Shown: in pieces, positions 4,974-23,911 of the stretch
How the letters are laid out: every line of letters starts with the position of its first letter
How positions within the stretch are numbered: the stretch's first letter is position 1
From: Bradyrhizobium prioriisuperbiae
Lineage (GTDB): Bacteria > Pseudomonadota > Alphaproteobacteria > Rhizobiales > Xanthobacteraceae
NCBI RefSeq assembly: GCF_032397745.1
Contig: NZ_CP135921.1
Span: 6,312,501 to 6,376,500 of the forward strand
Length of the DNA: 64,000 nucleotides
Direction of reading: 5' to 3'
Made by a program: the position numbers and the translations under genes
The notes under the pieces: generated by a model
Databases searched by the model: none
What the model saw: only the letters and a program-made list of their open reading frames with translations
Told to the model about the DNA's origin: nothing

Positions 4974-5531
4974 ATGACGACCAGGCCGCGCCGCACCACC
5001 TATCGCCATGGCAATCTCAAGTCCGAGGCACTTGCGATCGCTTATCGTCTCGTGGCCGACGCCGGCCACGAAGCCCTGAGCATGAGACAAGTGGCTGATG
5101 CGGTCGGGGTCGCGCATCGCTCCCTTTACAATCATTTCGAAGATCGTGAGGCGCTGCTCGATGCGGTCGCCACCGAAGCTTACGAGCGGCTGGCTGCGAT
5201 CCTGGCCGAAACCCAAACCTCCGATGATTATGTCGCGCAATATGTCCGCTTCGCGCTCGCGCACCGGACGATCTACGGCTTGATGGTCAGCCGGCCGCAC
5301 GGGACCATGAAGAACTCGCCGTCGCTTCAAGCCGCCGTCCACAAGGTCATCACCGAAGCGATGCGGATTTTCTGCGGAGATATCGAGGCTCCATCGGAAC
5401 GGCGCCGCGCCGTGATGAAGATCTACATCCTGCTCTATGGTGGCATTTCGCTCTATGGGGCCGGCATTCTGGACCTTCCAAGCGAGACGGCGCTGATTGC
5501 CGAGCTCTCGGCGATGAGCGCAAAAATGTGA
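4974..5531 (+). CDS. TetR/AcrR family transcriptional regulator
   Basis: A 185-residue one-domain regulator with an N-terminal helix-turn-helix: the segment LSMRQVADAVGVAHRSLYNHFEDREALLDAV (given in two parts: LSMRQVADAVGV, AHRSLYNHFEDREALL) spans about residues 33-63 and matches TetR DNA-recognition helices. The C-terminal ligand domain is short and of the type that begins around residue 75; its ligand cannot be read from sequence. ATG 4974 is chosen because it follows AAAAGGGGG and begins the usual basic N-terminus (MTTRPRRTTYRHG); an in-frame start at 4953 lacks such a signal. Its neighbour is the upstream crotonase gene, suggesting control of acyl-CoA metabolism, which is inference. Confidence 0.9.
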   Translation: MTTRPRRTTYRHGNLKSEALAIAYRLVADAGHEALSMRQVADAVGVAHRSLYNHFEDREALLDAVATEAYERLAAILAETQTSDDYVAQYVRFALAHRTIYGLMVSRPHGTMKNSPSLQAAVHKVITEAMRIFCGDIEAPSERRRAVMKIYILLYGGISLYGAGILDLPSETALIAELSAMSAKM

Positions 5532-22459: not shown

Positions 22460-23542
22460 TCAGGCTCCGACCTTCACCGCATTGCGATTGGCGATCCGGC
22501 GCTGCTCGATGGCAATGGCCAGCCGCTTCAGCACCACGACGGTTTCATCCCAATCGATACAGCCGTCGGTGATGCTCTGGCCGTAGGTGAGGGGTTTACC
22601 ATCTTCCTGGTCCTGACGTCCCGCGACGAGATTGCTCTCGATCATCACGCCGATGATGCGGTTGTCGCCGGCCGCGACTTGTTCGGCGATGTCTTCGACC
22701 ACCAGCGTTTGCCGCTCCGGTTTCTTGGAGCTGTTGGCGTGGCTGGCGTCGATCATCACCAGCGGTGCGAGACCGGACTTGGCGATCTCCGTGCAGGCTG
22801 CAGCAACGCTCTCCGCACCATAGTTCGGTGTCTTGCCGCCGCGCAGGATGACGTGGCAGTCCCCGTTGCCCGTTGTCGAAGCGATGGCTGAGCGGCCATC
22901 CTTGGTCACCGCCATGAAATGATGCGGCTGCGAGGCCGACTTCACGGCGTCCACCGCAATACGGACATTGCCGTCGGTGCCGTTCTTGAATCCGACGGGG
23001 CAACTCAGGCCGGATGCGAGTTCGCGATGGATCTGGCTTTCCGTGGTGCGTGCTCCGATCGCGCCCCAGGCGACGAGGTCGGCGATGTATTGCGGCGTCG
23101 TCATGTCGAGGAATTCGCAGGCTGCCGGCAGACCGAGGTTGTTGATATCGAGCAGCACCTTGCGGGCGACGCGCAGGCCCTTGTCGATCTGGAAGCTGCC
23201 GTCGAGATCGGGGTCGTTGATGAGACCCTTCCAGCCCACCGTGGTGCGCGGCTTCTCGAAATAGACCCGCATGATGATGTCGAGCGAGGAACCGAGGCTT
23301 TGGCGCAGCTCGACCAGGCGCGATGCGTAGTCGAGCGCGGCTGCGGGATCATGGATCGAACAGGGACCAACCACGACCGCGAGACGATCGTCGTGTCCCT
23401 GCAGGATGGCGTGGAAGGCATTGCGGGCGTCGGACACCACGCGGGTGGCCTCCAGCGTGCGCGGATGCTCGTGCACGACCTCCGCCGGGGTGGTCAGTGC
23501 CTTGATTTCACGAATGCGAAGATCGTCGGTGGTGCTTAACAT
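22460..23542 (-). CDS. aroG: 3-deoxy-7-phosphoheptulonate synthase, class I (AroF/G/H type)
   Basis: DAHP synthase condenses phosphoenolpyruvate and erythrose 4-phosphate, the entry to the shikimate pathway. The 360-residue protein is a class I-alpha enzyme: signatures are VVVGPCSIHDPAAALDYA (about residue 56), RVYFEKPRTTVGWKGLINDP (Arg and Lys ligands for PEP), GARTTESQIHRELASGLSCPVG (GARTTESQIHRE, GLSCPVGFKNGTDG) and MIDASHANSSKKPERQ with the metal-binding His. ATG 23542 follows AAGGGA at good spacing. Its leader carries a complete attenuator (23582-23719). That regulation is expected to respond to aromatic amino acids; whether the enzyme itself is also feedback-inhibited cannot be told. 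Confidence 0.96.
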   Translation of the reverse strand: MLSTTDDLRIREIKALTTPAEVVHEHPRTLEATRVVSDARNAFHAILQGHDDRLAVVVGPCSIHDPAAALDYASRLVELRQSLGSSLDIIMRVYFEKPRTTVGWKGLINDPDLDGSFQIDKGLRVARKVLLDINNLGLPAACEFLDMTTPQYIADLVAWGAIGARTTESQIHRELASGLSCPVGFKNGTDGNVRIAVDAVKSASQPHHFMAVTKDGRSAIASTTGNGDCHVILRGGKTPNYGAESVAAACTEIAKSGLAPLVMIDASHANSSKKPERQTLVVEDIAEQVAAGDNRIIGVMIESNLVAGRQDQEDGKPLTYGQSITDGCIDWDETVVVLKRLAIAIEQRRIANRNAVKVGA

Positions 23543-23581
23543 GGCCTGGGTTCCCTTGATGGGTTTCCCGGCTGACGGCAC

Positions 23582-23609
23582 AAAAAAACCGCCAGTCGGA
23601 CTGGCGGTT
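23582..23609 (-). terminator. Attenuator terminator in the aroG leader
   Basis: On the minus strand AACCGCCAGT (23609-23600) and ACTGGCGGTT (23596-23587) form a perfect 10-bp stem with a 3-base CCG loop, followed by a U run (23588-23582). It sits inside the 5' leader, 40 bases before the aroG start, so it would prevent expression unless disrupted. Its 5' arm CCGCCAG (23607-23601) is exactly complementary to CTGGCGG (23665-23659) inside the leader ORF, giving an alternative antiterminator. Confidence 0.9.
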
Positions 23610-23635
23610 GTTCGGGACTTGATTTGCTTCAATCT

Positions 23636-23719
23636 TCAGATCGAGCGCACCCCTACCTCCGCCAGCAGCCTGGGAAAGCTAAAATACCAATAAAAGCTGG
23701 GGGCGGATGCGAAGGTCAT
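23636..23719 (-). CDS. Aromatic-rich leader peptide of aroG
   Basis: A 27-codon ORF (ATG 23719 to TGA 23636) lies directly upstream of the terminator. Codons 8-15 read Ser-Phe-Tyr-Trp-Tyr-Phe-Ser-Phe (23698-23675), so six of eight consecutive codons are aromatic and all three aromatic amino acids are represented. Just upstream, CCAGC (23700-23696) can pair with GCTGG (23666-23662), which overlaps the antiterminator segment CTGGCGG. A ribosome stalled in the run would mask the first partner and free the second to block the terminator. An in-frame ATG at 23728 exists but overlaps the predicted -10 box, so ATG 23719 is preferred. No Shine-Dalgarno is visible, consistent with a leaderless start. 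Confidence 0.85.
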   Translation of the reverse strand: MTFASAPSFYWYFSFPRLLAEVGVRSI

Positions 23720-23725
23720 GGCGTG

Positions 23726-23754
23726 CATATAGTCGCGCGGTGGCCGTTTGTCAC
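23726..23754 (-). promoter_or_regulatory. Putative promoter of the aroG attenuator transcript
   Basis: On the minus strand GTGACA (23754-23749) resembles a -35 box and TATATG (23731-23726) a -10 box, with a 17-base spacer. The expected transcription start is six or seven bases beyond the -10 box, at or next to A23719, the first base of the leader ORF. This would make the leader peptide leaderless. The assignment is by consensus only. Confidence 0.55.
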
Positions 23755-23911
23755 GGGTCTTTTGCGCCTCGTGCGGGGATTGCGTGCGAGCGTGACCGGG
23801 GCGCCACGCCGGGCGTTCCCGCGGCGGCTGCAATAGCTTAGGCTGACTGGATTAACAACGACCGCGCGGCACGGCCTTGGCCGGCTCAGCGCGGCAAAGG
23901 GAGTGATATCG

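Follow-up and report, generated by a model that had tools for sequence, protein, structure and literature searches.

How does Bradyrhizobium prioriisuperbiae adjust the expression of its class I DAHP synthase, with which the shikimate pathway begins? Within the 64,000-nucleotide stretch of DNA that was analysed here (the window), the gene for this enzyme (23542-22460), for which aroG is used as a shorthand, is preceded by a short ORF with a run of aromatic codons and by a hairpin with a T-run (Table 1). The initial annotation had read this arrangement as a ribosome-mediated transcription attenuator of aroG, and the comparisons described below make this reading very likely. The nature of the target gene is clear: its product scores 530.7 bits against TIGR00034 (AroFGH type; cut-off 173.2) and 557.5 against the AroG-specific model NF006723, slightly below the cut-off of 568. 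Chains of solved Phe-sensitive DAHP synthases, which we take to be the E. coli enzymes, align to residues 5-349 of the 360 residues (E 1e-146). The host encodes, on its single 9.08-Mb contig, one class I DAHP synthase, two class II enzymes and a second PF00793 gene that by its sequence resembles kdsA; no credible leader was found within 600 nt upstream of the two class II genes. Among three genomes of the host's own genus the gene was found in one. A recent transfer of aroG from a distant donor was considered and is not needed, because the tree places the gene beside the Bradyrhizobium-Mesorhizobium-Rhodopseudomonas group (SH-aLRT 83, not a starred branch). The leader DNA (179 bases) gave no match at E 1e-5 in a plasmid collection.

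Table 1 Features of the aroG locus (window positions)
Feature	Position	Strand	Basis
aroG, class I DAHP synthase (360 aa), regulated gene	22460..23542	-	TIGR00034; solved DAHP synthase chains
-35-like box GTGACA	23749..23754	-	sequence; spacing in relatives
-10-like box TATATG, 17 nt from -35 box, 6 nt to leader ATG	23726..23731	-	sequence; spacing in relatives
Leader peptide ORF MTFASAPSFYWYFSFPRLLAEVGVRSI, 27 codons + TGA	23636..23719	-	read from sequence; probably leaderless
Sensor codons TTT TAT TGG TAT TTT AGC TTT (F Y W Y F S F)	23675..23695	-	sequence and codon counts
Segment 1, 5' arm of 1:2 stem	23696..23707	-	minimum-energy fold
Segment 2 GCTGGCGGA, partner of segment 1 or segment 3	23658..23666	-	helix 2:3 alignment
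Segment 3 AACCGCCAG, common to antiterminator and terminator	23601..23609	-	alignment of both helices
Intrinsic terminator hairpin, perfect 10 bp, loop 3	23587..23609	-	terminator scan; alignment
Terminator T-run	23582..23588	-	sequence

The whole element covers positions 23719-23582 of the minus strand. Direct reading of the sequence confirmed the 27-codon aromatic leader ORF (23719-23636) in front of the class I gene and found its FYWYF run and the terminator exactly where the initial annotation had placed them. No other ATG-started ORF of 8-75 codons in the window has at least five F, Y or W among eight consecutive residues; in 20 first-order Markov simulations of the window, six or more of eight never occurred and five of eight occurred in one simulation. 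A second ATG lies in frame 9 nt upstream of the leader ATG, within the -10 box. The aromatic leader is not a product of chance, because it recurs in front of related aroG genes: of 150 upstream regions from alpha-, beta- and gammaproteobacteria, 148 have both a terminator and an aromatic leader ORF with an ATG start. The two others are L058, with 48 nt of upstream sequence available, and L061, which has no qualifying ATG start and carries a leader with a TTG start. Since some genomes were sampled twice, through two collections (L037 and L138 encode the same peptide on contigs of equal length), the number of different leader sequences among the qualifying regions, 139, is the better count. The 150 regions comprise those of 80 named relatives (best-segment identity 66-79% among the matches listed), 78 of which have an aromatic-rich leader ORF upstream, and 70 from the host family. 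In this family, represented by the upstream regions of the window, L087-L115 and L116-L155, the gene was found in 70 of the 341 genomes searched, and leader and terminator were present at all 70. As judged from these regions, the attenuator is conserved in many proteobacteria.

The base pairing required for attenuation was assessed in an alignment of 50 leaders, each less than 85% identical to the others. For the antiterminator that had been proposed, CTGGCGG (23665-23659) with CCGCCAG (23607-23601), 89.7% of the cells were paired, compared to 16.6-54.6% for slid versions of the helix and to an equally high value in 3 of 500 shuffles; four of the seven pairs were changed on both sides, in seven cells. 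These results support the pairing. Its covariation is modest, because the core is nearly invariant and the pair counts depend on the alignment. The two outer pairs fail in 15 and 17 of the 50 leaders, some Devosia-type leaders (L011, L020, L023) have an A-C mismatch, and in L154 and L155 the change of segment 2 is accompanied by one in segment 3 (GC to AU), leaving U-G with segment 4. Duplexes of a leader's own segments 2 and 3 are on average more stable than swapped ones (-19.5 vs -17.1 kcal/mol), a difference explained in part by relatedness. The perfect 10-bp terminator with its T-run was verified in the sequence; its helix is paired in 93.1% of the cells, 27 of which are changed on both sides. 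As segment 3 is common to both helices, antiterminator and terminator are mutually exclusive. Less uniform is the stem between segments 1 and 2. CCAGC (23700-23696) and GCTGG (23666-23662), the initially proposed partners, are both present, but the minimum-energy fold of the window has a different and longer register, with UCCGCC (23707-23702) paired to GGCGGA (23663-23658) and CAGCUU (23699-23694) to AGGCUG (23671-23666). The core is predicted to pair upstream with a probability above 0.5 in 28 of 50 leaders, and z is below -1 in 26 of 50 (mean -1.16; window segment -0.72). Thus, conservation as expected by the initial annotation holds for the aromatic run, the antiterminator and the terminator and only partly for the 1:2 stem. 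A second antiterminator helix (GGG:CCC) that looked good by eye was rejected: 98 of 5000 permutations were as low with all 50 sequences and 304-483 of 5000 in three thinned sets, and a reversed-sequence control scored nearly the same.

The RNA is strongly conserved around GCUGGCGGAGG and CCGCCAG, as would also be expected if the terminator were a standing one that is regulated by a protein or a ligand in the manner of a riboswitch, the aromatic ORF being incidental. We consider this highly improbable, given that the aromatic leader recurs in nearly all upstream regions with synonymous codon changes, and that Rfam detects no riboswitch at 23500-23800, while in 16 relatives no Rfam family reaches its threshold at the aroG leader. 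With Rfam release 15 at the gathering threshold the only match in the window is to Guanidine-II and lies away from the leader; a search of 23500-23800 with E up to 10 gave three chance-level matches and no leader family (Phe_leader, Trp_leader or others). The Guanidine-II (mini-ykkC) riboswitch match is located at 2065-2112 of the minus strand (36.3 bits, threshold 32). Separately, a ZMP/ZTP riboswitch match (63.2 bits) was seen at 5273-5354 of the minus strand in the Rhodopseudomonas infernalis locus L037.

Peptide and RNA appear to be constrained in different parts of the leader. The aromatic run is kept across leaders with synonymous codon changes, while the reading frame through the core of segment 2 differs in 8 of 50 leaders, which indicates that this stretch is constrained as RNA rather than as peptide and argues against a conserved function of the peptide C-terminus. 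The latter bears on the idea that the RNA released by termination (about 138 nt), or the peptide that it encodes, acts also in trans. Such functions have been demonstrated for rnTrpL/peTrpL of Sinorhizobium according to the available text (PMC7298713, PMC10117765), and the present leader would be a leaderless small mRNA of the same layout; we regard a trans function as quite unlikely.

All three aromatic residues are encoded in the leader of the window (FYWYF), as was noted initially, and in 129 of the 148 leaders when the whole ORF is counted; Tyr is present in all 148. In 46 leader-gene pairs the codon choice of the leaders differs from that of aroG, both for Phe (TTT:TTC 117:36 in leaders vs 44:245 in aroG) and for Tyr (TAT:TAC 68:44 vs 89:170). 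We infer that Phe, Tyr and Trp all act as sensors. Alternatively, the leader could sense mainly one or two of them, the other aromatic codons reflecting drift or RNA shape. The aroR leader of Corynebacterium glutamicum, a Phe-Tyr-Phe attenuator of the aroF operon, would be a precedent, as expression of this operon is changed by Phe limitation and unaffected by Tyr availability according to the available review text (PMC11802643, PMC4046766; originally Neshat et al. 2014). Nineteen leaders without Trp, 18 of them from records with betaproteobacterial names, point in the same direction, as does L082, in which the only Trp is located outside the aromatic run. However, TGG is the sole Trp codon and is lost by a single change, and still only one of the Trp-less leaders (L078, record named Rhizobiales) is alphaproteobacterial by name; the presence of Tyr in all 148 likewise speaks against this alternative. 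A response to only one or two amino acids is a serious possibility, to which we give somewhat less than even weight.

The promoter boxes of the window agree with the consensus in five of six (-35) and four of six (-10) positions and do not appear in the list of a consensus promoter scan. In 138 leaders with enough upstream DNA, scanned with assumed base frequencies for the -10 box, the end of the best -10-like hexamer falls 6-8 nt upstream of the leader ATG in 78 cases, and [TC]GACA begins 70 times at position -34 or -35 relative to this ATG. A further 11 [TC]GACA are located at -41/-42, which we attribute to scoring from the downstream member of a pair of ATGs. Strings resembling a Shine-Dalgarno site occur before 11 of the 138 leaders, compared to 83 of 101 aroG starts. 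Promoter spacing and scarcity of Shine-Dalgarno sites support the proposal, made already in the initial annotation, that translation of the leader ORF is leaderless, and we consider this arrangement probable. It is a known layout in Bradyrhizobium japonicum, for which 192 transcript starts mapped exactly to start codons are reported in the available text (PMC4842269). Transcription could instead begin further upstream than the leader ATG. This would be in line with the failure of the promoter scan to list the window's boxes, with the 60 of 138 leaders that have no best -10-like hexamer at the 6-8 nt distance, and with the leaders of Burkholderiaceae and Oxalobacteraceae, in which -10-like boxes read by eye lie well upstream of the ATG; because of the latter the leaderless layout is not universal. 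The sharply peaked spacing of the promoter boxes and the rarity of Shine-Dalgarno-like sites speak against a leadered ORF, which we regard as unlikely.

From the ORF, its aromatic run, the terminator, the antiterminator pairing and the promoter spacing, all of which can be read in the sequences, we infer ribosome stalling, a response to each amino acid, the transcript start and the mode by which segment 2 is blocked. RNA polymerase presumably starts at or adjoining the leader ATG, and would be followed by a ribosome that needs no Shine-Dalgarno site. When too little tRNA charged with Phe, Tyr or Trp is available, this ribosome should stall in the FYWYF run and cover segment 1. Segment 2 would then be free to pair with segment 3 (CUGGCGG:CCGCCAG), the terminator could not form and aroG would be transcribed. 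If Phe, Tyr and Trp are all plentiful, the ribosome would reach the stop codon, segment 2 would be occupied by segment 1 or by the ribosome, and the terminator formed by segments 3 and 4 would end transcription about 40 nt before aroG. The last aromatic codon is separated from the segment-2 core by 10-20 nt in 46 of 50 leaders. In the window the stop codon is located 20 nt past this core, so that a terminating ribosome may not cover it; blocking would then have to rely on the 1:2 stem. Very probably, the attenuator turns aroG on when aromatic amino acids run short.

The distribution of the element was followed with a covariance model of the leader, which represents the terminator structure only and gives rough E-values. 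In the host genome the model has one strong match (118.8 bits), in front of aroG, followed by a match of 24.2 bits. At E 0.01 matches were found in 219 of 398 genomes of the phylum; most of the weak ones, among those listed, cover the terminator end alone. An aroG relative is located downstream of a match in at least 49 of the 398 genomes searched, namely the window, all 29 of the loci L164-L192 and, out of another 40 places picked from the matches listed, 19 that are nearly all full-length matches. The downstream genes were looked at in four of the other 21 places, and all four matches (37-46 bits) precede genes that we name from their sequences as pheS/pheT (L206) and pheA-type (L210, L212, L221). 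Among the closest known systems are the gammaproteobacterial pheA and pheST leaders, which share the logic of a Phe-rich leader and a terminator but have other target genes and weaker model scores; an AEVGVRSI-like segment was absent from the four leaders of this type that were looked at. These matches are an unplanned positive control for the model. In L210 (1-1830), the Phe-rich leader is followed by a frame that by eye resembles a chorismate mutase/prephenate dehydratase fused to a DAHP-synthase-like domain.

Since 225 of the 398 genomes have a class I DAHP synthase at E 1e-60, the attenuator belongs to a part of this enzyme family. Of the well over a hundred class I genes that lack a strong match to the model, 20 were looked at, one of which (L261) had only 137 nt of upstream sequence. 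They gave a single leader call, in L275 (TTG start, four of eight residues aromatic), which is weak and was judged to be chance; L275 was accordingly set as lacking the attenuator before the tree was built. In the tree of 98 proteins the attenuator label needs five changes compared to 18.6 for shuffles, and one of the five is probably not real because L058, with its 48 nt of upstream sequence, was counted as lacking the attenuator. With so few label changes, we regard the attenuator as old and as rarely gained or lost. L257 (G648) is nested among leader-bearing relatives (branch support 97), but no leader was called in the 443 nt upstream of it, so that a loss is likely; L267 also looks like a loss. 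Conversely, L195 is alone in having the attenuator among genes without it. The name of the record of locus L005, Mycobacterium sp. KBS0706, is probably wrong: its aroG is of alphaproteobacterial type, and its leader resembles that of Inquilinus (L007).

The initial annotation could recall no multi-specific leader of a DAHP synthase gene in this group. This stands as far as the available text of open papers goes, in which no aroG attenuator of this kind was found for Alpha- or Betaproteobacteria, an earlier mention being possible (Vitreschak et al. 2004, Neshat et al. 2014). It does not extend to other bacteria, as leader-peptide attenuators of DAHP synthase genes are known in C. glutamicum and have been proposed in Acholeplasma. 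The C. glutamicum aroR leader also precedes a DAHP synthase gene and has aromatic codons, but it belongs to an actinobacterium and contains Phe-Tyr-Phe, with no Trp named in the available text (PMC11802643, PMC4046766); the two were compared by description only. The uORFC-13-1 motif upstream of Acholeplasma aroF likewise combines a Phe-containing uORF with a terminator. In contrast to the present leader it is a prediction only, has a ribosome-binding site and at least one Phe, and it is described only from Acholeplasma and environmental DNA in the text available (PMC8632094). Attenuation with a leader ORF at the 5' end of the transcript is established in Alphaproteobacteria for trpL/rnTrpL of trpE(G) in Sinorhizobium, but the leader peptides of Sinorhizobium (14 aa) and Bradyrhizobium (Bja-peTrpL, 15 aa) concern Trp only and another gene (PMC7298713, PMC10117765, available text). 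Predicted 5' RNA structures also precede the proteobacterial DAHP synthase genes aroF and aroH in Shewanella, without an aromatic leader peptide being described for them in the accessible part of the source, which also cites a 1980 E. coli study for an aroF attenuator sensing Tyr-tRNA (PMC2659441). The aroG attenuator can be regarded as a new family of a known mechanism.

Rfam release 15 recognises the attenuator neither in the window nor in 16 relatives, so that it is an addition to the RNA families. Its natural leaders with and without Trp make it possible to test to which codons a leader for several amino acids actually responds, and control of DAHP synthase is also relevant to the production of aromatic compounds. 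Tentatively, and with a probability that we put only just below one half, all these leaders, in alpha-, beta- and xanthomonad-type gammaproteobacteria alike, may form one old, mostly leaderless family that makes the first enzyme of the shikimate pathway respond to a shortage of any one of Phe, Tyr and Trp, Trp sensing having been lost or gained by lineage. E. coli has separate DAHP synthase isoenzymes together with the repressors TyrR and TrpR; if the any-of-three reading is true, one RNA would do what E. coli does with these. The aroG attenuator offers a testable answer to the question of the means by which many proteobacteria may control entry into aromatic synthesis.
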